A stretch of 40,317 nucleotides of DNA, from contig JADZBS010000087.1 in the NCBI GenBank assembly GCA_020851975.1, positions 1 to 40,317 on the forward strand, in the 5' to 3' direction. Under the pieces are notes generated by a model, which saw only the letters and a list, made by a program, of their open reading frames with translations, was not told the DNA's origin and made no database searches. The position numbers were made by a program, and so were the translations under genes. Position 1 is the stretch's first letter, and every line of letters starts with the position of its first letter. Origin of the DNA: Gammaproteobacteria bacterium (lineage in GTDB: Bacteria > Pseudomonadota > Gammaproteobacteria > Steroidobacterales > GCA-2729495). Of the stretch, positions 1,476 through 30,937 are shown piece after piece.

Positions 1476-1643
1476 GCTTCCGTCCAGCAATGCAGGGGCA
1501 CCCAGCCTAACGCAGTCGCCGGCCCGGCGACCATGCACGCGGTGCTACCATGAGCGCCCCCGGAATCCAGGGCATCGGTGCGCCCGCCCCGGACCGGGCC
1601 AGGACCCAGCGGCCACCCGGCCCGCGCAGGATACCCACATCGC

Positions 1644-2546
1644 ATGTTCGGCTACCTGATGCGCCACTGGCGTGGCGAACTGTCGCTCGCTGTCGCCTGG
1701 TGGATCAACGGCGTGGCCCTCACGCTGGGCCTGCTCGCACTCTCGTTCAACGCGCAACACCTCGGCATCGCCCCGCTGCTGACGACGCGCACCGGTTTCG
1801 CCGTGTATTGCATGGCCGGTCTCGCGCTGTTCCTGCTCGTGCCGGCCTGGCAGGTGATCGGCATCTTCCGGACAGCCGACCGCCATGCCATCGAAGTCGG
1901 CACCCTGCTCGCCACGCGCCTCACCCAGTCGCTCGCCACGCTGCTCACGGTGTTGCTCGCCACGCACTTCCTGATGTTCGCCGGCGAGGCCCGCTCGGGC
2001 CTGCGCCTCGCCTGGCCTCCCGGCGGACCGTCCTACACGGTCGCCATCAGCCATGACGGGCGCATGCTCGAGATCAGGGGAAGTTTCACCTTCGGTCTGG
2101 CCGAGGATGCCCGCCGCCTGCTCGACGCCAATCCGCAGGTGCGCCGCGTGCGGCTGAACAGCGGCGGCGGCCTGCTCGGCGAAGCACAGCGTGTGCGCAC
2201 CCTGATCGTCGAACGCGGGCTCGACACCGACAGCACGACGGTGTGCGCGAGCGCCTGCGTGTCGGCCTATCTCGGTGGCGCGCACCGCCTGCTGCACGCC
2301 TCGGCGCGCCTGGGCTTCCACCTGCCGCGCAACCCCGGCTTCGGCCTGCGCGGGCGCGTGTCGCCGGAGTACGCCGCGGAGCTGCGCGAGTTCGCGCGCC
2401 GCGGCGTGCCGCGCTGGTTCATCGACCGCTGGGTCGCCAGCGGGCGGCAGTTCTGGTATCCGGATCCACGCCAGCTGCGGATGTCGGGTCTCGTGCACGG
2501 TTATTTCGGCCGGCCGCGGCCGGGCGAGGAGGCCTGGTTCCGCTGA
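1644..2546 (+). CDS. Membrane protein with ClpP/crotonase-like serine hydrolase domain
   Basis: A 300-residue protein. Residues 1-115 hold about three or four membrane helices. Residues 130-290 resemble the ClpP/SppA fold seen in COG3904-type predicted periplasmic proteins. Visible signatures are LNSGGGLLGEA (about 171-181, the glycine loop that usually forms the oxyanion hole), CASACVSAYLGG (S203 aligned with the ClpP nucleophile) and LGFHLPR (H226). The Ser-His spacing of 23 is close to the 25 of ClpP. I see no Clp ATPase partner nearby. An upstream in-frame ATG at 1578 would add a Pro/Arg-rich stretch, so I start at MFGYLMRHW. The active-site assignment is inferred from spacing, and the substrate is unknown. 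Confidence 0.7.
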   Translation: MFGYLMRHWRGELSLAVAWWINGVALTLGLLALSFNAQHLGIAPLLTTRTGFAVYCMAGLALFLLVPAWQVIGIFRTADRHAIEVGTLLATRLTQSLATLLTVLLATHFLMFAGEARSGLRLAWPPGGPSYTVAISHDGRMLEIRGSFTFGLAEDARRLLDANPQVRRVRLNSGGGLLGEAQRVRTLIVERGLDTDSTTVCASACVSAYLGGAHRLLHASARLGFHLPRNPGFGLRGRVSPEYAAELREFARRGVPRWFIDRWVASGRQFWYPDPRQLRMSGLVHGYFGRPRPGEEAWFR

Positions 2547-2616
2547 CGGCCGCTGGTGCCCGTTCGCCGAACGTCCTACGCTCCCGGCAAACCTGTCGCC
2601 GGGGAGCTTCCTGATC

Positions 2617-3606
2617 ATGACCAGCCAGGAAACCTTCGTGCCGCTGGAACGCGTGACGTTCGAGACGGCCGCCGAGCACGCCACGCGCGACGTACCCGTG
2701 GTCGACCTGGGCGCAACGGCCGCGGGGATCCGCCGGCAACTCGCGACCCGCCGCTTCCGCTGCGCCTCCCACGTGGTGGTGACCCGTGGCCGGCAGTTCG
2801 CCGGCATCATCCGCGTCGAGGACGCCATGGCGGCAGGCGAAACGGACACCGCCGTGCAGCTCATGGACGCCAGGGCGCCGGTGGTGTCACCTGGCGCCGA
2901 TCAGGAGGTGGCCGCCTGGCGCGCCGCGCAGCGTGGTGAATCGGCATTGGCGGTGGTCGATGCCCACGGGGACTTTGCCGGGCTCATTCCACCCGACCGC
3001 CTGCTCGCGGTGATGCTGGCCGAGCACGAGGAGGATCTCTCCCGCCTGGGCGGCTTCATGCGCAGCAGCGCCTCGGTGCGCCAGAGCACGGAGGAACCGG
3101 TGCGCCGGCGTTTCCGGCATCGCCTGCCGTGGCTGCTGGTCGGGCTTGCCGGCGCGCTGCTCTCCGCCGACATCGTCGGAGCCTGGCAGGCGCGGCTGGA
3201 AGGGATGGTGATGATCGCCTTCTTCATTCCGGCAATCGTCTATCTCGCCGATGCCGTGGGCACGCAGACGGAAACGGTCGTGGTGCGCGGCCTGTCGGTC
3301 GGGGCGCGGTTTCGCACGATGCTGCCGCGCGAGGTTCTGACCGGCGTCGCCATCGGCCTCGTGCTGGCGGCCGCGGCCGGTCCCGTGATCCTGTGGCGCT
3401 GGGGCAGCGCGGAACTGGCGCTCGGAGTCGGCCTGGCACTCTTCGCCGCCTGCTCCACGGCGACGCTCGTGGCGCTCGCCCTGCCCTGGGCGCTGGACCG
3501 CGCCGGCATCGACCCGGCCTTCGGCAGCGGACCGCTCGCCACGGTGATTCAGGACCTGCTGTCGATTCTCATCTACTTCCTGATCGTCGATGCCATCCTC
3601 GGCTGA
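2617..3606 (+). CDS. MgtE-like divalent cation (Mg2+) transporter, short form
   Basis: A 329-residue inner-membrane protein. The N-terminal half (about 45-150) reads as a weak CBS-domain pair (SHVVVTRGRQFAGII..., ALAVVDAHGDFAGLI). The C-terminal half has five hydrophobic helices with the MgtE signature in the form ADAVGTQTETVVVRGL (family: GGNVGTQS-type loop) and a final LATVIQDLLSILIYFLI helix. It lacks the roughly 130-residue superhelical N domain of classical MgtE (about 450 residues), so Mg2+ gating may differ. The start has a GGGGAG site (2601-2606) ten bases upstream. The first G of the family GGN loop is replaced by Ala-Asp; the effect is unknown. Confidence 0.82.
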   Translation: MTSQETFVPLERVTFETAAEHATRDVPVVDLGATAAGIRRQLATRRFRCASHVVVTRGRQFAGIIRVEDAMAAGETDTAVQLMDARAPVVSPGADQEVAAWRAAQRGESALAVVDAHGDFAGLIPPDRLLAVMLAEHEEDLSRLGGFMRSSASVRQSTEEPVRRRFRHRLPWLLVGLAGALLSADIVGAWQARLEGMVMIAFFIPAIVYLADAVGTQTETVVVRGLSVGARFRTMLPREVLTGVAIGLVLAAAAGPVILWRWGSAELALGVGLALFAACSTATLVALALPWALDRAGIDPAFGSGPLATVIQDLLSILIYFLIVDAILG

Positions 3607-16440: not shown

Positions 16441-18537
16441 TCAGCGCCACTGCGACCAGTCACGGCGATTCTCGGCGACGTGGAACAGCGCGGCGACGAC
16501 GCGCCGGTCGAACTGCGTGCCCGCCGTACGCATGAGCTCATCGAGCGCAGCCGCAACGGACAGTCCCGGCCGGTAGGCGCGGCCGCCGACCAGTGCCACG
16601 AAGGCGTTGGCAACCGCCAGCACCTGGCCGGCGAGCGTCAACTGCTCGGCCGGCAGGCCGTGCGGGTATCCGTGCCCGTCCGGCCGCTCCTGCTTCTGGG
16701 CGATGATGTCGAGCACGGGACCGTCGAACTGCAAACCCCTCAGCAGTTCCAGACCGAATTCCACGTGCTTGTGCAGCAGCGCCTGTTCAGCGGCACTGAG
16801 CGGTTCACGCTTGGTGAGAATCTCCACCGGGATCATGATCTTGCCGATGTTGGCCAGGCTCGCGGCCAGATCGAGCGTGCTGCGCTCCTGGTCGCTGAAA
16901 CCGAGTTCGCGGGCCAGCGCGTCGGCAACTTCGGTCATGCGCCGGGCGTGGTTCGCCGAGTGCGGATCGTGGCGGTCGACCGCGCTCACCAGCGTCAGCA
17001 CCAGACGCCTCAGCAGGTCCATGTGCCGCTTCTGCGCCTGGCGCAGCACCGTAACGTCGCTCATCACGATCAGCACCAGGTCGGACTCGGCACCGATGCG
17101 TGCCACGGGAATGAAGCTGGCGTGAAACTCGCGCGGACCCGCCGGCGTCTCCCAGGCCAGCAGCTTGTGCACCGCTGCCGCCTGCTCACGGGCGCGCCCG
17201 ATGCCTTCCTGGACCGCCGCCCACATCGGTGCCGGCAGGACGGCAGCCAACGAGCTGTCGACGACTTCGGCGATGCTGCGCCCGGCGGCGCTCGCCGCTG
17301 CCTGGTTCGTGAAGAGCACGCGCCCGTCGGACGTGGCGAGCACGGTCAGCACGTCGAGGTTGTCGGTGATGGTGTGCAGGAGGTCGGTCTGGCGTTGCAG
17401 CCGCGCCGCCTTGTCGGCCGACTCCCCGGCCTCGTGCCGCGCGCGCACCCCGCTGCCATGGCGCCAGGCGGCCACCGCCACGGCCACGATGGCTACGAGC
17501 AGCAGCGACAGCGCCAGCAGGAGGAAGCGCCGGCGTTCGTCGGCGAGGCTCAGCGCCTGCCCGGCGTCGACCTGCTGGGCGAGCACCCAGTCCTGGCCGC
17601 GCACGCTGCGGCTCACCTGCAGCACCTCATCGCCATGGTAGTTGCTGCCGGTGAAGAACCGGCCAGGCGTCGTCGTGGCGGCCACTTCGGCGAGCTCGCC
17701 GCGATCGGCAGGCAGCGTGCGCCGCAGGGCGGGCGAACCATCCGCGAGCGGCGAGGCCAGCACGACCACGTCGCCACGTCGCACCAGCAGCAGCGCTTCG
17801 GCAGCCTCGGCGAATGCTGCGCCGCGTTCCAGCAAGGGAAAGAGCTCGTCTCCGGCGCCGCGCACGCCGAGCAGCACGCCGAGCGGTGCATCGCTGCCGC
17901 CGGGGCTTGCGCCCGGCACCGTCCCGACCGCGACGGCCGTGACGACCACCGGCCGCTCGTCGGCGTCGGCCACGAGGTGCACGGTATGCGCCCGCGGATC
18001 GGCGAGCGCGGTGCGTGCCACCTCCAGACAGGCGTCGCAGTCGGGGAAGCCCGGCGTCTGCACCACGCGCTGCAGGCGGGCATCGAGCAGCGCCAGGCCC
18101 GCGCTGCGCCGTTGCGGGAGGTTCGCCGGGATGCGGGCCGAATCGGCCGCGACGTAGCCGTAACGGTCGGCCGCACCGAGCAGCAGGTTGCGCAGGTAGC
18201 CGAGCGCGCCGGGTTCGACGCTGTCGCCCGGCGCCGCAGCCGCCTGCGCGAGCTGCCACAGGTAGAAGCGCAGCGAGGCATTGGCTGCGAGTTCCTCGAG
18301 ATCGCGCCGGTAGCCGGCCGCGAGCCGGGCCACGGCATCGGCACGCGCATCGGCGACGAGCCCCAGGCGCGACTCCCATTGCAGCAGGTCACGCTCGCGC
18401 TCGCCCTCGATATAGGCGTTGATGAGCCCGACACCGGCAGCGACGAGCAGCAGCAACGCCGCCATTGCAGCCACGATGGAGTAGCGCGTTGCCGGTTTCA
18501 CGTGCCTGGACCCGGCGCCGAAGGCGTGTGGATCCAC
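16441..18537 (-). CDS. Membrane receptor with periplasmic sensor, PAS and degenerate HD-GYP domain
   Basis: A 698-residue protein: TM1 (about 20-42), a periplasmic domain of about 295 residues (43-337, Cache-like by size and position), TM2 (338-358), a PAS domain (about 385-500) and an HD-GYP domain (505-690). The GYP motif is kept (HGYPHGL, 623-625), but the catalytic metal ligands are not: the HD pair is Ala-Asn (562-563, LANIGK), the HHE cluster is QKQE (614-617) and the later VAD Asp is Asn 644. H591 and E617 remain. It should not hydrolyse c-di-GMP but may still bind it. The ATG at 18537 overlaps lapG by 40 bp; a GTG at 18501 overlapping the lapG stop as GTGA is an equally good start. 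Cotranscribed with lapG. Confidence 0.85.
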   Translation of the reverse strand: MDPHAFGAGSRHVKPATRYSIVAAMAALLLLVAAGVGLINAYIEGERERDLLQWESRLGLVADARADAVARLAAGYRRDLEELAANASLRFYLWQLAQAAAAPGDSVEPGALGYLRNLLLGAADRYGYVAADSARIPANLPQRRSAGLALLDARLQRVVQTPGFPDCDACLEVARTALADPRAHTVHLVADADERPVVVTAVAVGTVPGASPGGSDAPLGVLLGVRGAGDELFPLLERGAAFAEAAEALLLVRRGDVVVLASPLADGSPALRRTLPADRGELAEVAATTTPGRFFTGSNYHGDEVLQVSRSVRGQDWVLAQQVDAGQALSLADERRRFLLLALSLLLVAIVAVAVAAWRHGSGVRARHEAGESADKAARLQRQTDLLHTITDNLDVLTVLATSDGRVLFTNQAAASAAGRSIAEVVDSSLAAVLPAPMWAAVQEGIGRAREQAAAVHKLLAWETPAGPREFHASFIPVARIGAESDLVLIVMSDVTVLRQAQKRHMDLLRRLVLTLVSAVDRHDPHSANHARRMTEVADALARELGFSDQERSTLDLAASLANIGKIMIPVEILTKREPLSAAEQALLHKHVEFGLELLRGLQFDGPVLDIIAQKQERPDGHGYPHGLPAEQLTLAGQVLAVANAFVALVGGRAYRPGLSVAAALDELMRTAGTQFDRRVVAALFHVAENRRDWSQWR

Positions 18538-19166
18538 CAGCCCTGCTGGTTGATCGAGTACACCGGTGCGTAGTGCACCACCTGCCGGTGCGGGATGACT
18601 TCGCGCACCTGGTTGTCGAGCACGAGAATTTCGGGGCCGCGGCCGACCGCGAGCACCGCGTGTGGCGCACGCAGGTTGGTGTCCTGGACGATCACGATGC
18701 GCAGGTCACCGCCCGGGAAGCCGAGCCAGCGCAGCGAGAAATACTTGGCGATGGCATAATCCTCGCAATCCCCGCCGTTGCCGAGGAACTCGCGGGGTAT
18801 GGCCCAGTAGTCCTCGACCCGGTAATTCTCGAAGTCGAGTACGTAGTCCATCTCGTTGGCGTAGCGGTTGACCTCACGCAGCTGCTCGGCGACCGGCCGG
18901 CCGCGCAGCCCGCCGAGGAACGTGAGCCAGCGGCTCATGTGACAGCGGTTGAGGCGGGGCTCGCTGCAGTCGCCGTCGCGCAGGTCATCGCGCAGGTGTC
19001 GCTCGAGCGCCTGCAGCCACTGCGGGAAGGTATCAAGGGCCGCCTGGCCCTGCTGGCGGTAGCCGAACAGGTCGTCAGCGAAGGCGCAGGCCGTCCCCGG
19101 CACGAGCCAGAGCGCTGCACACAGCAGGGCGAGGGTCCGGGCCGCCGCCCGGCATAACTGCGACAT
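18498..19166 (-). CDS. lapG: LapG-like periplasmic cysteine protease (BTLCP family)
   Basis: A 222-residue protein with a signal peptide (to about residue 28, TACAFA) and a transglutaminase-like fold. The catalytic triad is visible: C134 in GNGGDCEDYA, H169 in LRAPHAVLAV and D184 in ILVLDN, close to C135/H172/D189 of Pseudomonas fluorescens LapG. The Ca2+-binding acids flanking Cys (D133, E135) are also kept. LapG removes large surface adhesins by cleaving at a di-alanine site, and is held inactive by the c-di-GMP receptor LapD. No LapD or RTX adhesin is in the window; instead the next gene is a degenerate HD-GYP receptor. Start ATG at 19166; the divergent gene begins 70 bp away. Confidence 0.9.
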   Translation of the reverse strand: MSQLCRAAARTLALLCAALWLVPGTACAFADDLFGYRQQGQAALDTFPQWLQALERHLRDDLRDGDCSEPRLNRCHMSRWLTFLGGLRGRPVAEQLREVNRYANEMDYVLDFENYRVEDYWAIPREFLGNGGDCEDYAIAKYFSLRWLGFPGGDLRIVIVQDTNLRAPHAVLAVGRGPEILVLDNQVREVIPHRQVVHYAPVYSINQQGWWIHTPSAPGPGT

Positions 19167-19235
19167 GGTCGGTTGAGCCACCGAAGATCGGCCCGTAGTA
19201 TCGCGTAGACTTCGTCCGCTCCACAACATAATCAC

Positions 19236-20510
19236 ATGAACAAGAAAAACGGACACTGCCGCAACCTGCTCCCCTGTCTCCTGCTCGCCGCCGCTGGCAC
19301 GGCCGCGGCAGCCGACGACGTGCAGGGCCGGTTCGATTCGGCCCTGCAAGCCATCGAGCAGGATCGCCTGCGCACGGCACGCGAAACGCTCCAGGAGCTG
19401 CTCACCGCCAACCCGAGCCTGCACCGCGCGCGGCTCGAGCTCGCCCGGGTGTACTACCTCTCGGAGGACTTCGCCGGCGCGCGCCGCGAGGCGCAGCGCG
19501 TGCTCGACGATCCGGAAACACCGCCAGCCGTGCGCACCACGGTGCTGGCCTTCCTGGCCCAGATCGACGCCGACGAGCGGCGCGCCAGCGAGCGCCACAG
19601 CTGGACACCCTCTCTCTATGCCGGGCTGATGTACGACTCCAACGTCAACATCGGCCCGAGCCGCGACGTCATCGACATCGGCGGCCTGCCGTTTGCGATC
19701 GCTCCGGACTCGCGCGAACAGGAGGACTTCGCCTGGGTGATCAACCCGGCCGTCTCGCACGTCTACAACCCGGGCCGGCATTTCCAGGCCGGTGAACACA
19801 CCGGCACCTTCATCTGGCAGACGGATGCCAGCGCCTATTACCGCGGCTACTTAGACGAGAACGACTTCAACTTCGGGGTACTGACGCTGCGTACCGGACC
19901 CGCCTGGATCGTTCCGCGGCACTGGCGCGCCTGGCTTGGCCTGCAGGCCGACCAGATCTGGCTCGGCGGCGACAGCCTTGCGCTCTTCACCTCGCTCAAC
20001 CCCGGCGTGACCTGGGAGGCCGGTGCACAGACCGAGATCACGCTGGAAGGTGCGCTCACCGACCGTCACTACTGGGAGGATGCCGACGAGGGCCGCGACG
20101 GCCAGGAGGCACTGGGCCGCGTCACGGTGACCCGCTACTTCAACAACCGGCAGCTCGCCGTGCAGGCCGGCGCCGGCTACGCGCGCTTCGATGCCGATGA
20201 GGACCGCTTCGGCTACGACGCCCCGGAGTTGTTCGCCGGCGTCATCGCCGAGGCCTGGACGAACGGCATGGTGTTCGCACGCATCGGCTACCGCAACTTC
20301 GACTTCGACGGCGTGGAACCCTTGTTCGGCATCGGGCGAGACGACGACGAGCTGCGCTACACCCTCGGTTTCCAGCACGACCTGCGCGAGGGTGTGCTCG
20401 CCGGCTGGGCTGTGCAGGGCAACTGGATCTACACGGACAACGATTCCAACGTCGTGCTCTACGAGTACGACCGCCACGTAGTCAACCTCGGCCTCGCACG
20501 CAGCTTCTGA
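19236..20510 (+). CDS. Slam-like outer-membrane TPR/beta-barrel translocator (DUF560, type XI secretion)
   Basis: A 424-residue outer-membrane protein. A signal peptide ends near residue 25 (AAAADD). Residues 28-115 form TPR-type helices (QGRFDSALQAIEQDRLRTARETL..., LHRARLELARVYYLSEDFAGARR). The rest is a beta-barrel beginning with LYAGLMYDSNVNIG (133-138 YDSNVN, the usual Slam barrel entry) and ending in LGLARSF, a C-terminal Phe suited to BAM insertion. Slam proteins move TbpB-like cargo to the cell surface. The N-terminal TPR part is shorter than in Neisseria Slam. The next gene on the same strand has a cargo-type barrel domain, which supports the call. No strong ribosome site before the ATG. 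Confidence 0.8.
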   Translation: MNKKNGHCRNLLPCLLLAAAGTAAAADDVQGRFDSALQAIEQDRLRTARETLQELLTANPSLHRARLELARVYYLSEDFAGARREAQRVLDDPETPPAVRTTVLAFLAQIDADERRASERHSWTPSLYAGLMYDSNVNIGPSRDVIDIGGLPFAIAPDSREQEDFAWVINPAVSHVYNPGRHFQAGEHTGTFIWQTDASAYYRGYLDENDFNFGVLTLRTGPAWIVPRHWRAWLGLQADQIWLGGDSLALFTSLNPGVTWEAGAQTEITLEGALTDRHYWEDADEGRDGQEALGRVTVTRYFNNRQLAVQAGAGYARFDADEDRFGYDAPELFAGVIAEAWTNGMVFARIGYRNFDFDGVEPLFGIGRDDDELRYTLGFQHDLREGVLAGWAVQGNWIYTDNDSNVVLYEYDRHVVNLGLARSF

Positions 20511-20712
20511 AGCCCATGCTGCCTGCGGCGCGCCGCACCGCGCCGCGCGCACATGCTGGCGAACCGGTTAACATATCGACCGACGAATGTCGCATTTGCT
20601 GCGTGCAGGGCGTGAGAATGCCGGCGGTTTCCAGTAAAAAGAGAGCAGCAGGCGACCCCTGACGACAAGAGCGGCAGTCCCACGCTGGACCAGTCGCCGG
20701 AGAACAAGAACG
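20511..20712. other. 202-bp gap between the translocator and its probable cargo
   Basis: It contains an AT-richer patch (about 20566-20640) in otherwise GC-rich DNA, but I cannot identify a convincing -35/-10 pair. The segment was checked for c-di-GMP riboswitch (GEMM) signatures, which are absent. It could be an untranslated leader for the 20713 gene. A CGGAGAA stretch ending about seven bases before the ATG serves as a weak ribosome site. Confidence 0.35.
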
Positions 20713-21897
20713 ATGTACCTGGCAAGGCTATTGCTCATTCCGCTGCTCGTTGCGTGGTCGCTCGGCGCCACGGCTGCCGACCTCCCGCTCGACGATCAGG
20801 ACTGCGCGAAGATCCTCGAGCGCTGGGCCGAGAATCCGGGCGCCGTGCCGAGCCATCTCGTCGAACGCTGCAAGGAACAGCTTGCCGCCGCCCCCGCGCC
20901 GGTGGCCGCGCTCGCTGCCGAGCCAGCCGTCGCCGATCCCTGCACCGGTCCCGGTGCCGCCGGGTCGGTGCTCTGCTGGGGCCCCTGGGCGACACTCGCA
21001 CCGGCTGCAGCCGGCGAGCCGGCGAAGCTCGATTTCCCGGAAAGTGATTTCGACTGCGAGGCCGGCAGCGACATTGCCGACCAGTGCGTGGCCAGGATCG
21101 TGCCGATCGGACCGGCGCCGCCGGTGGAGGGCTGTGCGCCCGGCACTCCCTGCGGTTTCGCCACGCTGGTGGCCGGCCTGACGAGCAACGGCGACGTGGA
21201 GGCGACCAGCTTCGAACGCTTCGACCTCGCCGGCGACGGCTCGGCATTCGTCGTGGATCCCGGTGGTCCCGACGAGATCGAATCGGTCGGCATGGGCGTG
21301 ATCGTCACGCCACGTGGCGACGGCTACGAGAACATGCGCTCACGCGGACGCGTCGGTGACCACGAATCGCGGCTGATCGCCCGCATCGTGCGCGACGGCG
21401 AATCCGGCGACATCGAGCTGGCCGCCGACATCTGGACCGACGGCAACCGCACGAACAGCGCGCTCGACCGCTCGGGCTATTTCGCCTGGGGCATTGCCAC
21501 CAGCCAGTCGGGCCTGAACCTGCTCTCCGGCAATGGCCTGAGCGTCGCCTTCACCGGACCGATGTCGGTGAACAATGCCACCCAGGCCAGCCTCACCGTG
21601 AATTTCGGCAGCCAGGCAGGCTGGAGCGGCACCTGGACCAACCCGGCCTGGTCGTTCGGCGCCGGCGGTTCGGTCAACGGCGTGAACCTCCTGTCCAGCC
21701 CGTCGCAGTTCACCGGCAACGTGCAGTCGGGCAGCGTCGTGCAGGGTGCGCTCCTCGGCGAGCCCGGCCGCATGGGCATCGCCCACCTCATCGACGTGAA
21801 CCTCGCCGGTGTCGGGCACATCAAGGATGTCGGCCTGCTGCGCGAGGTGACCGGTGGCCCGACCGGTGGAACAACCGGCAGCATGGGGCCGCCGTAG
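20713..21897 (+). CDS. Secreted TbpB-barrel protein, probable cargo of the adjacent Slam-like translocator
   Basis: A 394-residue protein with a Sec signal peptide (cut near ATAAD, residue 22) and no lipobox Cys. Residues 25-145 are Cys- and Pro/Ala-rich (about eight Cys, probably disulfides). The C-terminal 220 residues read as an eight-strand TbpB-like barrel: YFAWGIATSQ, then ASLTVNFGSQAGWSGTW, then FTGNVQSGSVVQGALLGEPG, followed by strands ending with IAHLIDVNLAG; this last pattern corresponds to the FxGxVxxGxVxGxFxGPxA block of Slam substrates. The typical FYGPxA has become LLGEPG. The lack of lipidation suggests a secreted cargo of the hemophilin type rather than an anchored lipoprotein. 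Ligand unknown. Confidence 0.72.
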   Translation: MYLARLLLIPLLVAWSLGATAADLPLDDQDCAKILERWAENPGAVPSHLVERCKEQLAAAPAPVAALAAEPAVADPCTGPGAAGSVLCWGPWATLAPAAAGEPAKLDFPESDFDCEAGSDIADQCVARIVPIGPAPPVEGCAPGTPCGFATLVAGLTSNGDVEATSFERFDLAGDGSAFVVDPGGPDEIESVGMGVIVTPRGDGYENMRSRGRVGDHESRLIARIVRDGESGDIELAADIWTDGNRTNSALDRSGYFAWGIATSQSGLNLLSGNGLSVAFTGPMSVNNATQASLTVNFGSQAGWSGTWTNPAWSFGAGGSVNGVNLLSSPSQFTGNVQSGSVVQGALLGEPGRMGIAHLIDVNLAGVGHIKDVGLLREVTGGPTGGTTGSMGPP

Positions 21898-21922
21898 CAG
21901 GCCCGTCAGTATTCAACAGGAG

Positions 21923-21938
21923 TCCGGTACGCACCGGA
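21923..21938. repeat. Small perfect inverted repeat TCCGGT/ACCGGA
   Basis: A six-base stem with a four-base loop (ACGC) in the 61-bp gap between the cargo gene and the VPLPA-CTERM gene. There is no U-tract, so termination is unlikely; it may be an operator or a chance hairpin. Confidence 0.3.
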
Positions 21939-21958
21939 GTGATCTCGAGGAATCCCCC

Positions 21959-22555
21959 ATGAACCGCCACGCCAACCTGTCCCTCGTCGCCGCGATCATC
22001 GTCGCGACGAGCCTGCCGGCGCAGGCCGCCAGCATCGCGCTGCAGCCTTCGGCATCGACCGTGCTGCAGGGCCAGGCCTTCACGCTCGACCTGCTGATCA
22101 GCGCTGCCGACGCGCCCGGCAAGCACCCTGGCGGCCTGTACGGTGGCGAAGTGGCCATCCGCTTCGACCCTGCGCTGGTGAGCTTCCAGGGACTCGCGCT
22201 CCAGGGCGGCGTGAGCCTCTACCTGCCGCTCGCGAGCCAGAACAACGGGGGCCAACAGACCCTCAGCTTCGGCTTCGACAATGCCCCGGAGAACGGCCCC
22301 GTAGCCACCTTGACCTTCACGGCCGTCGGCAGCGTGGGCTCGACCGCCGCCTTCGACCTCGAGGACAACGACGACTTCTCGGGCAGCTTCGCCGCCTATC
22401 TCGATACTTACCAGCGCTTCGACCCGGCGTTCCTCGACACATCGGTGCAGATCGCAGCCGTGCCGTTGCCGGGTGCCGCCTGGCTGCTCGCGACTGGCCT
22501 GGCCGCGGTCGGTGCCGCCCGGCGCCATCGGCCACGGACCCAGCGCGACGCCTGA
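21959..22555 (+). CDS. VPLPA-CTERM sorted, cohesin-like secreted protein
   Basis: A 198-residue protein with a signal peptide (cut near AQAAS, residue 24) and a cohesin-like beta domain (SIALQPSASTVLQGQAFTL; YGGEVAIRFDPALVSFQG). The C-terminus has the tripartite exosortase signal: VPLPGAAWL, a hydrophobic helix (LLATGLAAVGAA) and the basic tail RRHRPR. Such proteins are processed by an exosortase and often linked to extracellular polysaccharide; no exosortase gene is in the window. Start ATG at 21959 with GAGG eight bases upstream. Its stop overlaps the next ATG by one base (TGATG), tying it to the L,D-transpeptidase. Confidence 0.82.
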   Translation: MNRHANLSLVAAIIVATSLPAQAASIALQPSASTVLQGQAFTLDLLISAADAPGKHPGGLYGGEVAIRFDPALVSFQGLALQGGVSLYLPLASQNNGGQQTLSFGFDNAPENGPVATLTFTAVGSVGSTAAFDLEDNDDFSGSFAAYLDTYQRFDPAFLDTSVQIAAVPLPGAAWLLATGLAAVGAARRHRPRTQRDA

Positions 22556-23952
22556 TGCCACGCGCGGCCGGCTGGCTGGCCGCCGCGGCGCTGCTCGTTC
22601 CGGTCGCGCTGCCCGCGGCCCCGCCCCATCCAGCGCCCGAGCTGCCAGCATGGATTGCCGGGCTGCTCGACGGCAGCCGGCCGGCGATCGACCCCGCCAT
22701 CGCCGATCCCGACTGGCACATTCCGCCGGCCACCACGGCACATTCGGCGCTCGCCGCCGGCCGACCCGACGCGCAGCGCCTGCTCGAGGCGTTGCGCCGC
22801 CACGTTGCCACGGCGGCCGCCGGCGGCTGGCCGGCACTGCCCGACAGCGGGATCCTCGCCGCCGGCACCCGCGACCCGGCAGTCGCCGTGCTGCGCCAGA
22901 GGCTGCGCGCGAGCGGCGACTACACCGGTGGCATGCTCGCCGATCCCTGGTACTTCGAACCTGCGCTGACGGCTGCGCTGCGCCAGGCACAGTTGCGCCA
23001 CGGACTGCCGGCCACCGGTCGACTCGATGAAACAACCCGCACGGCATTGAACGTGCCGCTCGCCGAGCGCATCGGCCAGCTTGCCGCCACCGTGGAACGC
23101 TGGCGCTGGCTGCCGGCGGATCCCGGCACCGACTACGCCTGGATCGACATCGGCCGCGGCCTGCTCGATGTCGTCGCCGGCAGCGAGCACGTGCTCACCA
23201 TGCGCGTCATCGTCGGCCATCCACTGCGGGCGACACCGAGCCTGCACGGTGAGATCGACCAGGTCGTGTTCAACCCGGCCTGGTCAGTGCCGCGCACCAT
23301 CGCCGTCGAAGACCTGCTGCCGCGCCAGCAGGCGGACCCGACGTTCCTGTCGAGCCGCGGCATTCGCGTGTTCCGCGCTGACGGCGGCGGGCCGGCACTG
23401 GACCCCGCGCGCATCGACTGGCATGCCCTCGATGCGCGCCGCTTCCCCTACCGCCTGCGCCAGGATCCAGGCCCGGGCAACAGCCTCGGGCGCGTGCGCA
23501 TCGGCTGGCGCAATCCCTTCGACATCTACCTGCACGACACGCCCGTCAGGGGCCTGTTCGCCCTCGACCGGCGCACGCTCAGCTCCGGCTGCGTGCGGCT
23601 CGAGGATGCCACCGGGTTCGCCACCTGGCTGCTCGGCCGTGACCGGCCCTGGACCGCTGCCGCCACGGCCGCGAGCATCGACACCGGCCGCACGCAGGTG
23701 CTCGGGCTGCGTCACCGGCTGCCCGTCTGGGTCGTCTATCTCACCACCTGGGTCGATGCCCATGGCCGTACCCATTTCGGCCGCGATCTCTACGGCCGCG
23801 ACCAGCGCCTGCGCGCGGCGCTGGCGGGAGCGGCACCGAGTGTCGCCGCCAGGCAGGCGCTGCGCCCGCCGGCACCTTCGACTATAGTCGACAGCCGATG
23901 GCGGCCGGCCGCCGCAGCGGCGGCCGGATCACCGCAGGAGTCCCGCCCATGA
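22555..23952 (+). CDS. L,D-transpeptidase, YcbB/LdtD-like
   Basis: A 465-residue periplasmic enzyme that cross-links peptidoglycan stem peptides through 3-3 bonds. Signal sequence about 1-22; peptidoglycan-binding-like domain about 105-168 (VAVLRQRLRASGDY, LRQAQLRHGLPATGRLDETT), followed by the YcbB-type linker ERWRWLP. The catalytic YkuD domain shows PFDIYLHDTP (H327) and LSSGCVRLED (C346), the full HxD...SxGCxR motif. Length is shorter than E. coli YcbB (615 residues) but typical of shorter homologues. It overlaps the upstream and downstream genes by one and four bases, so the three are translationally coupled. Confidence 0.92.
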   Translation: MPRAAGWLAAAALLVPVALPAAPPHPAPELPAWIAGLLDGSRPAIDPAIADPDWHIPPATTAHSALAAGRPDAQRLLEALRRHVATAAAGGWPALPDSGILAAGTRDPAVAVLRQRLRASGDYTGGMLADPWYFEPALTAALRQAQLRHGLPATGRLDETTRTALNVPLAERIGQLAATVERWRWLPADPGTDYAWIDIGRGLLDVVAGSEHVLTMRVIVGHPLRATPSLHGEIDQVVFNPAWSVPRTIAVEDLLPRQQADPTFLSSRGIRVFRADGGGPALDPARIDWHALDARRFPYRLRQDPGPGNSLGRVRIGWRNPFDIYLHDTPVRGLFALDRRTLSSGCVRLEDATGFATWLLGRDRPWTAAATAASIDTGRTQVLGLRHRLPVWVVYLTTWVDAHGRTHFGRDLYGRDQRLRAALAGAAPSVAARQALRPPAPSTIVDSRWRPAAAAAAGSPQESRP

Positions 23953-27297: not shown

Positions 27298-29124
27298 CTA
27301 GGTGAGCTTCGCGTCGACTTCGTCCTGCTGGATCTCGAACATGCGGGCGTACCAGCCGCCCTGGCGCATCAGCGACTCGTGCGTGCCGCGCTCGGCGATG
27401 CGACCGTCGATCATCACCAGGATCTCGTCGCTGTCGACGATCGTCGACAGCCGGTGCGCGATCGTCAGGGTCGTGCGCCCGCGGCACAGCCGGTGCAGGG
27501 CATCGAGGACGCCGCGCTCGGTCTCGACGTCGAGGCTCGAGGTAGCCTCGTCGAGGAGCACGACCGGTGCGTTCTTGAGCGCGGCGCGTGCGATCGCCAC
27601 GCGCTGGCGTTGGCCGCCGGAGAGCTTCGAGCCGCGTTCGCCGGCCGGTGACTCGTAGCCCTGCGGCAGGCTGATGATCCAGTCGTGCAGACCGGCCTGG
27701 CGGGCGGCCTGCTCGATCTCGGCCTGCGTGGCCTCGTAGCGGCCGAGGCGGATGTTCTCGGCGATGGTCTCGTTGAAGATGAAGCTGCGCTGGGACACCA
27801 CGGCGAACTGCCGCTGCAGGTCTGCCAGCGGGAATGCCGCGATCGGCCGGGAGCCGAGGAGGATCTCGCCGCGCTGCGGATCCCACTGGCGCAGCAGCAG
27901 GTTGACCAGGGTGGACTTGCCGGTGCCGCTCGGGCCGACGAGGGCCACGCGCCGGCCCGGGGCGATGTCGAGCGAGAAGTCGTCGAGCACCTTGCGCTGG
28001 CGACTCCAGCTCGCATCGTCGGCATCGTACTCGAAGCTGACATGGCGAAAATGCAGCGACGGCTCCACGCTGGCCGGAGCGGCCGCGCCCGGTGCCTCGC
28101 TCACAGCAGGCGGCTGGTCCATCATGCCGAACAGGCGGCGTGCGGCGATCATGGAGACGCGGAAGTCCGTGTAGTTGTTCGCCGGCCCCTGCGAGGTGTA
28201 GAAACCGACTATCGACACCGCGATCACCGCCGGCAGGTCGCTGAGGGCGCTGATGCGCCCGTCGAGGGCCAGTTCGATGCCCCACCAGGCCGCCGCCAGA
28301 ATGCCGACCGTGACGAAGATCTCCGAGAGTGCCCGTTGCGTGGCGTCGGCGCCGTAGAGCTTGTCCTGCCCCGCCTGCATGGAAGCGCCCATGTCCCAGA
28401 GTTCGCGGGCGCGGCGCTGCTCGTAGCCGAAGGCCACGGTGTCGCGCACGCCCTGGATGCTGTCGGCAACGAAGGCGTTGACGAGGCCGAGCTGCTCCCG
28501 GTAGCGCACGCCGTCGCCGCCGAGCCGCGCCACCAGCCAGGGCAGCACGAACACGCAGGCCACGTAGAAGGGCAGCAGGACCCAGACCAGCGAGGGCTCC
28601 ACGGTCCAGCACCAGCTGAGCAGGATTGCCGGCACCGCGATGCCGGCCACCGCTGGTGCGATGGTGTGGGCATAGAACGGTTCCACGCGCTCGCAATCGG
28701 TCATCACGCGGCTCACGGCATCGCCCGACTGCAGCTTGGCAGTGCGCGCCGGCGCGAGCGGCAGCATGGCGTAGTAGAACTTGTCGCGCAGCTCGGCGAG
28801 GATGCGAAACGCCACATAGTGGCCGGTGTAGTTCTCGAGATAGGACGCCAGCCCGACCAGCGTGCCGACGAGGGCAATCCACTTCACCTGCCCCCGGATC
28901 ACGTCCCAGGCCACCACGCCAGGCTCGGCCGCCTCGACGTAGAGGCCGACGCTCGCCGCCGCGATGCCGAGCAACGCCGCCTGGCAGCTGATCTTCACCA
29001 CCCGCGCGGTGAGCGAGACGATCATCGTGCCGTTGAACGGGCGCATGTAGCGCAGCAGCCGGCGCATGACCTGCCAGTTCGTCATCTGCGCGGATGCGCC
29101 GACCGTGGCTTCGATGGTATTCAT
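27298..29124 (-). CDS. Heterodimeric ABC exporter subunit, CydC-like
   Basis: A 608-residue half-transporter: six membrane helices (about 25-320), then an ATPase domain with Walker A GPSGTGKST, signature [14 protein letters not shown], Walker B VVLLDEATSSLD and H-loop IAHRLS. The membrane part has LQSGDAVSRVMTDCERVEPFY, the equivalent of the CydC SGDLLNRL...DVDALD segment. CydDC of E. coli exports glutathione and cysteine and is needed for cytochrome bd assembly. The Atm1/HMT-type export of metal-thiol conjugates is another possibility given its regulation. GGGAG nine bases before the ATG; 13 bp after the partner gene. Cytochrome bd genes are not in the window. Confidence 0.78.
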   Translation of the reverse strand: MNTIEATVGASAQMTNWQVMRRLLRYMRPFNGTMIVSLTARVVKISCQAALLGIAAASVGLYVEAAEPGVVAWDVIRGQVKWIALVGTLVGLASYLENYTGHYVAFRILAELRDKFYYAMLPLAPARTAKLQSGDAVSRVMTDCERVEPFYAHTIAPAVAGIAVPAILLSWCWTVEPSLVWVLLPFYVACVFVLPWLVARLGGDGVRYREQLGLVNAFVADSIQGVRDTVAFGYEQRRARELWDMGASMQAGQDKLYGADATQRALSEIFVTVGILAAAWWGIELALDGRISALSDLPAVIAVSIVGFYTSQGPANNYTDFRVSMIAARRLFGMMDQPPAVSEAPGAAAPASVEPSLHFRHVSFEYDADDASWSRQRKVLDDFSLDIAPGRRVALVGPSGTGKSTLVNLLLRQWDPQRGEILLGSRPIAAFPLADLQRQFAVVSQRSFIFNETIAENIRLGRYEATQAEIEQAARQAGLHDWIISLPQGYESPAGERGSKLSGGQRQRVAIARAALKNAPVVLLDEATSSLDVETERGVLDALHRLCRGRTTLTIAHRLSTIVDSDEILVMIDGRIAERGTHESLMRQGGWYARMFEIQQDEVDAKLT

Positions 29125-29137
29125 GCCTGTGGCTCCC

Positions 29138-30895
29138 TCAGGTCGAACCGGCGGCCGCGGCCGGCCGGCTCTCCATCTGACGTTTGGTCTGGATCATGCT
29201 GGCGTAGATACCGCCGCGTACCAGCAACTCCTCTCGGGTGCCGCTCTCGGCGAGACGCCCGCCGTCCATGACGATGATGCGATCGGCCTGCTCGATCGTG
29301 CTCAGGCGATGGGCGATGAGCAGCACGGTCTTGTCCTTCGTGAGCCGGGCCAGTGCGCGATTGAGCAGGGTCTCGGTCTCGACGTCGATCTGCGAGGTCG
29401 GCTCGTCGAGGATCACGATGGGTGCGTTCTTGAGGAGCGCGCGGGCGATGGCGAGCCGCTGGGCCTGGCCACCGGAGAGCGCCATGCCCTGGTCGCCTAC
29501 CTTGGTGGCGAAGCCGTCCGGCGTCGAACGGATGAACTCGTAGAGCTCGGCTGCATTGGTCGCGGCGATGAGCTCCTCCTCGGTGGCGTCGGGCTTGGCC
29601 ATGCGCAGGTTGTCGGCGATCGTGCCGAAGAACAGGAACGGATCCTGCGGCACCAGCGCGATCTGGCGGCGGATCCACTCGAGCGACAGTTCCTTCTCCG
29701 GCACGCCGTCGAACAGGATCTCGCCCGCCTGCGGCTCGAGGGTGCGCAACAGCAGGTTCGTCACGGTGGTCTTGCCAGAGCCGCTGCGGCCGATGAGCGC
29801 CACCGTCTCGTTGGGCTCGAGGACGATGTCGAGGTGCTCGATCGCCGGCCGATCGGCGCCGGGGTAGGTGAAGCTCACGTCACGCAACTCGACGCGTACG
29901 GCGCGGCCGTCGGTGGCACCCGGGTGCTCGTTCGGCGAACTGCTCACCGGTGCCTTCTCGTCGAGGAAAGCGCGCACATTGGCCGCCACCTCGCGTCCCA
30001 TCGCACCGGCGAAGAAGAATTCGCCGATCAGGAGCAGCGTACGGCTGAACTCCAGGCTGAGCAGCACCACCGCGACCACCTCGCCGGGCGTCAGGAACCC
30101 GCCGGTGTAGCGGTACAGCGAAACCCCGAGCGCCACGGCCGTCGAGAACAACGCGAAGCCGAGTTCGAGGAACACGAACTGGCTCTGCGCGACGAGCAGC
30201 AGCTTCATCGTGGTGCGCCGCTGGACCTCGTTGCCCGCCTCCATCTCACGGCCACGCCGCTCGGCGTGGTTGAACATCTTCAGCGTCGCCATGCCCTGGA
30301 TGGAGTCGAGGTATTGCGCGCTGTTGCGGTCCTTGACCTCGGCGTTCTGGGCGCTGATGCGCCGGAAGCCGCGCGCCGAGGAGCCGACGAACAGCGGCGT
30401 CAGCGGTACGCCGGCCAGCATCCACAGGCCGACCACCCAGTCGATCCAGAAGATGGCGGCGCACAGGAAGATGGGGATGGCGATCGCCACCCAGATCTGC
30501 ACGAAGTAGACGCTGAAGTAGTAGTCGAGGTACTCGACGCCATCGGTCGCCGTGTTGGCGATCTCGCCCGTGCGTCGCTTGCCGAGGATGCCGGGGCCAA
30601 GCTTCACGACCTGCTGGTAGATGCGGTCGCGCACGTTGATCTTGGCCTCGGCCGAGGCGCGGAACTGGCCGGTGCGGAATACCCAGGCGAGAGTGGCCTT
30701 GGCGAGCACCAGCACCGCCATGATCCAGAACCACTGTCGCAGCAGGTTGCTTCCCGCGATGGCCGCGTCGACAGCGAGGCCGAGCACCCAGTACAACAGG
30801 ATCGTGGCAGGAATGGTCGCGAGCCCCGCGACGAGGCCTACCCGGACCCATTTCATGGTCGTCGGCGTGACCAGCCTGTCGTCGACACCCAGCAT
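29138..30895 (-). CDS. Heterodimeric ABC exporter subunit, CydD-like
   Basis: A 585-residue half-transporter. Six helices span about 15-315; KRRTGEIANTATDGVEYLDYYF corresponds to the CydD RTGELATLLTEGVEALDGYF segment, which is why I assign CydD rather than MsbA-like. The ATPase domain has Walker A GRSGSGKTT, signature LSGGQAQRLAIARA, Walker B IVILDEPTSQID and H-loop IAHRLS. In the first half, LRQWFWIMAVLVLAKATLAW is typical of CydD. ATG at 30895 with GGGGAG eight bases upstream; much longer in-frame readings upstream run antisense to the P-type ATPase and are rejected. A MerR-type promoter directs this gene (30938-30969, minus). Confidence 0.78.
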   Translation of the reverse strand: MLGVDDRLVTPTTMKWVRVGLVAGLATIPATILLYWVLGLAVDAAIAGSNLLRQWFWIMAVLVLAKATLAWVFRTGQFRASAEAKINVRDRIYQQVVKLGPGILGKRRTGEIANTATDGVEYLDYYFSVYFVQIWVAIAIPIFLCAAIFWIDWVVGLWMLAGVPLTPLFVGSSARGFRRISAQNAEVKDRNSAQYLDSIQGMATLKMFNHAERRGREMEAGNEVQRRTTMKLLLVAQSQFVFLELGFALFSTAVALGVSLYRYTGGFLTPGEVVAVVLLSLEFSRTLLLIGEFFFAGAMGREVAANVRAFLDEKAPVSSSPNEHPGATDGRAVRVELRDVSFTYPGADRPAIEHLDIVLEPNETVALIGRSGSGKTTVTNLLLRTLEPQAGEILFDGVPEKELSLEWIRRQIALVPQDPFLFFGTIADNLRMAKPDATEEELIAATNAAELYEFIRSTPDGFATKVGDQGMALSGGQAQRLAIARALLKNAPIVILDEPTSQIDVETETLLNRALARLTKDKTVLLIAHRLSTIEQADRIIVMDGGRLAESGTREELLVRGGIYASMIQTKRQMESRPAAAAGST

Positions 30896-30937
30896 GGCGT
30901 TGCTCCCCGGGGCCGGAAGGGCCGGCCGTGACTGGGC

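Follow-up and report, generated by a model that had tools for sequence, protein, structure and literature searches.

A type 11 secretion translocator and its non-lipidated cargo are encoded beside a LapG-type protease and a DvhD-like receptor: a candidate for Lap-type two-step secretion

In the window, i.e. the whole stretch of 40,317 nucleotides that was analysed (contig JADZBS010000087.1 of a gammaproteobacterium), the translocator gene of a type 11 secretion system (T11SS) is followed by the gene of a non-lipidated cargo, and next to this pair, on the opposite strand, lie the genes of a LapG-type protease and of a catalytically degenerate HD-GYP receptor. We consider it fairly likely that an N-terminal retention module tethers the cargo until LapG, under the control of c-di-GMP, releases it, as suggested by a conserved motif, the synteny, the protein families and the analogy with DvhD/DvhG. 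The genomic evidence for a T11SS wired to LapG is strong, and from it we infer secretion, retention, cleavage and regulation. The original prediction, which was made without database searches, had described the pair and the lack of lipidation, and both of these stand. Its proposal of a ligand-binding domain does not, and the LapG and HD-GYP neighbours had remained unseen. With these two genes next door, the interpretation of the locus changes. The features to which we refer are the following (positions in the window):

16441..18537, minus strand: DvhD-like receptor of 698 aa, consisting of a transmembrane (TM) segment, a periplasmic part of about 300 residues, a second TM segment, a PAS domain and a degenerate HD-GYP domain (Pfam HD_5 and PAS_4)
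18498..19166, minus strand: LapG-type periplasmic cysteine protease (Peptidase_C93, 61.6 bits, over the cut-off)
19236..20510, plus strand: translocator, a T11SS outer-membrane protein (SlipAM/DUF560) of 424 aa, with a TPR part at about residues 27-118 and a 14-strand barrel at about residues 121-424 (Pfam, structural model, barrel folds)
20713..21897, plus strand: non-lipidated T11SS cargo of 394 aa with a Sec signal at about residues 1-22 (conserved beside the translocator, no lipobox)
20794..20886, plus strand: helical hairpin of the cargo, residues 28-58, with the invariant C31 and C53, proposed to be part of the retention module (pLDDT about 90)
20935..21015, plus strand: putative LapG recognition/cleavage element of the cargo, residues 75-101, DPC...C-WGPW-ATLA-P-AAAG (conservation, shuffle test)
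21136..21858, plus strand: TbpB-like handle-barrel of the cargo, residues 142-382 (model, structural comparison)
21959..22555, plus strand: VPLPA/PEP-CTERM-like protein, a possible fourth component (TIGR03370)

The two plus-strand reading frames of the pair, of 424 and 394 aa, were found where the original prediction had placed them. The TPR/DUF560-like barrel proposed for the first of them was borne out by the Pfam search, in which the translocator exceeded the cut-offs of SlipAM PF04575 (29.2 bits, cut-off 22) and of TPR_19 (25.3 bits, cut-off 25), the latter match lying in the N-terminal TPR part; its score with TPR_Slam (19 bits) was below the cut-off of 35.2. The TPR part is shorter than that of Slam1. 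The predicted structure consists of five helices followed by 14 long strands, and its nearest solved folds are the 14-strand monomeric barrels CymA (Z 22.3) and OmpG (Z 21.9). No solved Slam structure was among the matches listed for the model, and the fold comparison therefore supports a predicted 14-strand barrel only. A genome search found this protein as the sole SlipAM protein of the window genome. Judging from its family, the translocator would carry the cargo across the outer membrane. The strong subfamily to which it belongs was absent from a 398-genome sample of the phylum beyond the class. In one genome (G374; L062/L106), the translocator is split into two ORFs (L106:2610-3964), possibly by a frameshift or an assembly error.

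The cargo itself matched no Pfam or NCBIfam family, including TbpB_B_D. Its structure was predicted with high confidence over approximately residues 140-382, and the comparison of the model with solved structures matched the handle-barrel to the TbpB C-lobe (Z 14.7, rmsd 3.4, 195 residues). Other listed matches were NHBA, fHbp, LbpB and haemophilin; all 50 listed matches are T11SS-cargo-type proteins, with no unrelated fold among them. The claim that the C-terminal 220 or so residues are TbpB-like was thus confirmed at the level of the model fold. A class-wide profile search found diverged cargos in the families f137, f95, f147 and f114, which were joined to the window family by hhalign with 99.9% probability (E 2.9e-34, columns 86-383). 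The f147 cargo (L048) passed the TbpB_B_D model of Pfam (27.7 bits, cut-off 26) and scored 32.2 bits, below the cut-off, with NCBIfam slam_lipo. Together with the hhalign result, this match provides sequence-level support for the assignment of the cargo barrel.

The signal peptide of the cargo, read from the sequence, is plain, and no lipobox was present in any of 26 homologues, which agrees with the predicted Sec signal. All eight cysteines lie upstream of residue 150. Cysteines 31, 53, 77, 88, 141 and 147 are invariant in the 26 aligned cargos on which the conservation statistics are based, C115 and C125 are not, and this conservation suggests that disulfides are formed. A search of 296 genomes of the order yielded the cargo in 28, all of a single family (f1), each time with the translocator adjacent. 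Since the pairing is also kept down to approximately 40% cargo identity, the pair is conserved well beyond chance, with much of the f1 synteny representing one inherited event. The sequence, the model fold and this synteny support the predicted assignment as a T11SS translocator–cargo pair.

The gene of the LapG-type protease is divergent from the translocator gene, with approximately 70 bp between them. In an alignment with the LapG structures 4fgo and 4u65, its product had the C-H-D triad in register, and the protein falls into the BTLCP fold family and has the calcium ligands of LapG as well. The C/H/D triad and the DCED motif were conserved in all 24 LapGs aligned. With NCBIfam CystProtLapG the window protein gave E 5e-30 and 104 bits, below the equivalog cut-off of 320. 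The best match of the adjacent receptor (TM segments at residues 21-39 and 338-356) among solved structures was 9rc0/9rbz (E 3e-40), compared with 7.6e-21 or weaker for active enzymes. We take 9rc0/9rbz to be DvhD, the PAS/HD-GYP protein of Desulfovibrio vulgaris. The metal ligands of the receptor are replaced in every homologue that covers the motifs (HD by AN, HH mostly by KQ), and the HD-GYP domain is catalytically degenerate to judge by these residues. An active c-di-GMP phosphodiesterase next to LapG was rejected on the same grounds. The layout of the receptor and its lost metal ligands are those of DvhD, which is reported to bind c-di-GMP without hydrolysis and to target DvhG, a protease of the LapG type (PMC13090378). 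No Pfam Cache domain was matched in the periplasmic part of about 300 residues. A classical LapD was also considered and dismissed, as the LapD_MoxY_N model found none in the window genome and detected the protein in five other genomes of the search. Similarly, the LapA retention module (NF033682) had no match over the cut-off in the window genome, the assembly of which is 92% complete, and a type 1-secreted LapA adhesin was accordingly rejected as the LapG substrate.

The original prediction had taken the Cys/Pro-rich N-terminal half of the cargo for a possible new ligand-binding domain. We rejected this as the main reading, since this half was found to comprise one small helical hairpin with cysteines, linkers that are disordered and the short linear motif WGxW...PAA[G], and conservation is confined to the hairpin and the linear motifs. 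The hairpin (residues 28-58) and its cysteines are restricted to f1, and the motif alone crosses families. In the 26 cargos, P76, C77, C88 and WGPW are invariant and D75 and P97-A98-A99 are conserved in at least 90%; in the window cargo these elements are D75-P76, WGPW at 89-92, P97 and AAAG at 98-101. DS..WG.W..PAAG is invariant in the cargos of other families. In six cargos of 25-33% identity, 9 of the 21 invariant columns fall within it, and CxxGxxC comes next, at the start of the handle. Since the motif crosses families, the hairpin does not and LapG is adjacent, a cleavable retention module is a better reading of the N-terminal half than a ligand-binding domain.

LapG cuts between the two alanines of [T/A/P]AAG, upstream of which its substrates have a targeting helix and a DP motif (PMC13090378). 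The conserved element DS..WG.W...[TAP]AA[G] of the cargo N-terminus fits this rule, and the cargo, with such a site after a candidate targeting segment and DP, would be a putative LapG substrate. Among 38 motif proteins, 33 have [TAP]AA within 9 residues of WGxW (3.6 on average and 12 at most after shuffling), and the strict [TAP]AAG occurs within 24 residues of WGxW in 24 (shuffled mean 1.1, maximum 5). A chance di-alanine in an Ala-rich linker was therefore rejected, as shuffling yields far fewer. Some f1 cargos deviate from the strict AAG (PAAAP, PAASG, PAGG, PLAG), and the f1 protease would thus need a looser rule than that of P. fluorescens LapG.

In 23 of the 25 loci of the strong translocator subfamily, which cover eight families including that of the window, no more than 3.5 kb separate LapG from the translocator. 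In the 24th locus (G416), the translocator is found 1.2 Mb from the cargo, which has the LapG/HD-GYP pair at its side (L044, C1:712000-725000; L051), so that the link of LapG to the cargo is no looser than that of the translocator. The 25th locus belongs to a genome without LapG (G328). There, the translocator is followed by a FecR-type protein that ends in SPYSWGPW (L057; L103:3591-4394) and has no AA site; its FecR part matched the LapA retention model weakly (18.3 bits, positions 23-86). At 23 other, more distant DUF560 loci, neither LapG (flanks of about 1.5 kb) nor a convincing neighbour with the WGxW motif was found. A single LapG, located at the T11SS unit, was present in 12 of the 14 LapG-bearing genomes checked; the two genomes with a second LapG have LapD beside the extra copy and a LapA retention module above the cut-off. 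Nine genomes of the group, that of the window included, gave no match to that module.

In the families f105 and f17, the same translocator subfamily is accompanied by a classical LapD, LapG and small WGHW...DP...[T/P]xAG proteins. The LapDs of f105 and f17 scored 512 and 504 bits, respectively, with NF045673 and were over the cut-off of LapD_MoxY_N. The small protein of f105 reads WGHW-helix-ADPSQITEPTAAG, and its positions 91-116, the site segment, matched the LapA retention model NF033682 with 21.8 bits against a cut-off of 50; that of f17 reads WGHW-helix-ADPSDVTEAPEAG, with the site PEAG. LapGs that accompany LapD and LapGs that accompany the HD-GYP receptor fall into two separate clades (support 1.000). 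The form of the site, as read from these proteins, thus changes with the protease and receptor set that accompanies the T11SS unit. Frozen gene order would not readily account for this co-variation, nor for the absence of both LapG and the AA site in G328. The same T11SS/WGxW unit is found in different families either with a DvhD-like HD-GYP receptor or with a classical LapD, each with its own LapG lineage. In other families, the translocator subfamily is followed by small secreted proteins that keep DSVYxWGxW without a barrel (L056, L058, L059, L060), and such barrel-less proteins have an AA-type site at L099:3523-3882, L100:5720-6085, L101:4620-5003 and L102:3862-4185; motif proteins without a barrel occur in f105, f17 and f152. 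In view of them, WGxW might alternatively serve as a signal for the translocator, too.

The VPLPA/PEP-CTERM-like protein encoded downstream of the cargo scored 22.6 bits with TIGR03370 (cut-off 25.35), and its relatives in L094, L102 and L105 were over the cut-off. In most f1 genera and in f105, f152, f95 and f137, the next protein after the motif protein is of the PEP/VPLPA-CTERM type, the window genome encodes three exosortases, and the protein may be part of the T11SS unit. The ectodomains of the PEP/VPLPA-CTERM proteins that follow the WGxW protein differ among distant families (window, L099, L101, L102, L105, L045). A YkuD L,D-transpeptidase is encoded downstream of the unit (22555-23952, plus strand), a position that it keeps across f1; in genus g2, which has no PEP/VPLPA-CTERM protein, it comes directly next. 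Elsewhere in the window, two long ORFs (29066-30931, plus strand, 621 aa; 1545-2864, minus strand, 439 aa) had no Pfam match at E 0.001 and may or may not be coding. A sigma-70 promoter/terminator scan of 19100-22100 found none, and PHROGs gave no matches.

In ordinary Slam cargos, the lipidated N-terminus stays with the membrane and the barrel is displayed. Lap-type two-step secretion applied to a T11SS is the most economical model for the locus described here. In this model, the cargo would be exported by Sec, and its handle-barrel would be moved through or by the translocator to the cell surface, as its family suggests. The N-terminus, with the Cys hairpin and the C-WGPW element, would stay in the periplasm and hold the protein at the translocator. 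LapG would recognize the WGPW region and, to judge by motif and synteny, cut P-AA|AG at about residue 99, by which the handle-barrel would be freed. By analogy with DvhD/DvhG, the DvhD-like receptor would sense c-di-GMP via its degenerate HD-GYP domain and restrain LapG at high c-di-GMP.

That the locus is an ordinary T11SS pair, with a soluble ligand-binding TbpB-like cargo acting in the manner of haemophilin and with unrelated LapG and HD-GYP genes that merely share a positional ancestry, seems unlikely to us. The fold of the cargo matches haemophilin and TbpB, and non-lipidated T11SS cargos are already known (PMC12282271). However, LapG remains with the cargo where the translocator has been relocated (G416), the same translocator is accompanied in f105 and f17 by LapD and by a LapG of another clade, the AA site is missing where LapG is missing, and no TonB-dependent receptor turned up in those window ORFs that were scanned. 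The same site and linkage evidence would also be in agreement with LapG as a constitutive maturation protease, which removes an N-terminal propeptide before or during export without any regulated surface retention, and the small motif proteins that have no passenger to retain would suit such a function. It is nevertheless rather improbable, as a DvhD- or LapD-type receptor is coupled to LapG in nearly all LapG loci, which suggests control.

The chance is small that WGxW is instead a recognition signal for the translocator (e.g. for its TPR part) and that the AA site is incidental. The motif follows the translocator subfamily even where the barrel is missing, including the LapG-less G328, and was not convincingly seen at the 23 other DUF560 loci, but PAA and WGxW are jointly conserved within a linker that is disordered, and the type of site tracks the type of LapG; the two roles could also coexist. 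Hardly any weight can be given to the proposal that LapG acts on a substrate other than the cargo, such as the PEP-CTERM protein or an adhesin that escaped detection. Large adhesins are the usual targets of LapG control (PMC13090378) and a PEP-CTERM protein is often encoded in the same gene block, yet no LapA retention module was detected in the nine genomes of the group, and the AA site sits in the cargo.

The tethered and LapG-released cargo remains our preferred reading. With reasonable though not high confidence, we regard the locus as a third Lap-type two-step route after those of the type 1 and type Vb systems, in which a T11SS cargo would be held by a cleavable N-terminal module and not by a lipid, its release would be decided by c-di-GMP, and two unrelated types of receptor would act with their own LapG lineages. 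Few functional leads exist so far for T11SS cargos outside the host-associated group, and the locus offers a concrete, testable answer to the question of what holds non-lipidated cargos at the surface or frees them from it. If the model is true, a T11SS protein would be reversibly retained at the surface under c-di-GMP control. Lap-type control would then extend from large adhesins to small T11SS proteins, T11SS would be linked to the switching of biofilm lifestyle in environmental bacteria, and DS..WG.W...[TAP]AA would serve as a signature for finding more such cargos.

The locus shares with known T11SSs (Slam/DUF560; PMC8406197, PMC12282271, PMC9090332) the SlipAM and TPR parts of the translocator and an adjacent cargo with a C-terminal TbpB-like handle-barrel. 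Unlike those systems, its cargo is non-lipidated, carries the conserved WGxW...PAA and is encoded with LapG and a c-di-GMP receptor. The T11SS survey papers checked contain no mention of LapG or c-di-GMP, and a search of openly licensed (CC) papers found no link of LapG with DUF560, Slam or T11SS. The DvhA/DvhG/DvhD system of Desulfovibrio (PMC13090378) similarly combines a LapG-type protease with a TM-periplasmic-TM-PAS-degenerate HD-GYP receptor and a [T/A/P]AAG site, although DvhA is a large type 1 adhesin (PMC13090378), whereas the putative substrate in the window is a small T11SS cargo. The Pseudomonas LapA/LapG/LapD system resembles the locus in its LapG with the triad and in the proposed two-step logic of retention, and a true LapD is present in f105 and f17; it differs in that the window genome has no detected LapD or LapA retention module and that the secretion is not of type 1. 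CdrA of Pseudomonas aeruginosa (PMC4694147, PMC11898600) provides a precedent for a LapG target that is not secreted by a T1SS and whose anchor is based on Cys (‘cysteine hook’). CdrA is a type Vb protein with a C-terminal anchor, in contrast to the type 11 cargo and the N-terminal anchor proposed here. T11SS, LapG and DvhD are thus each known, and their combination is new to the literature searched.
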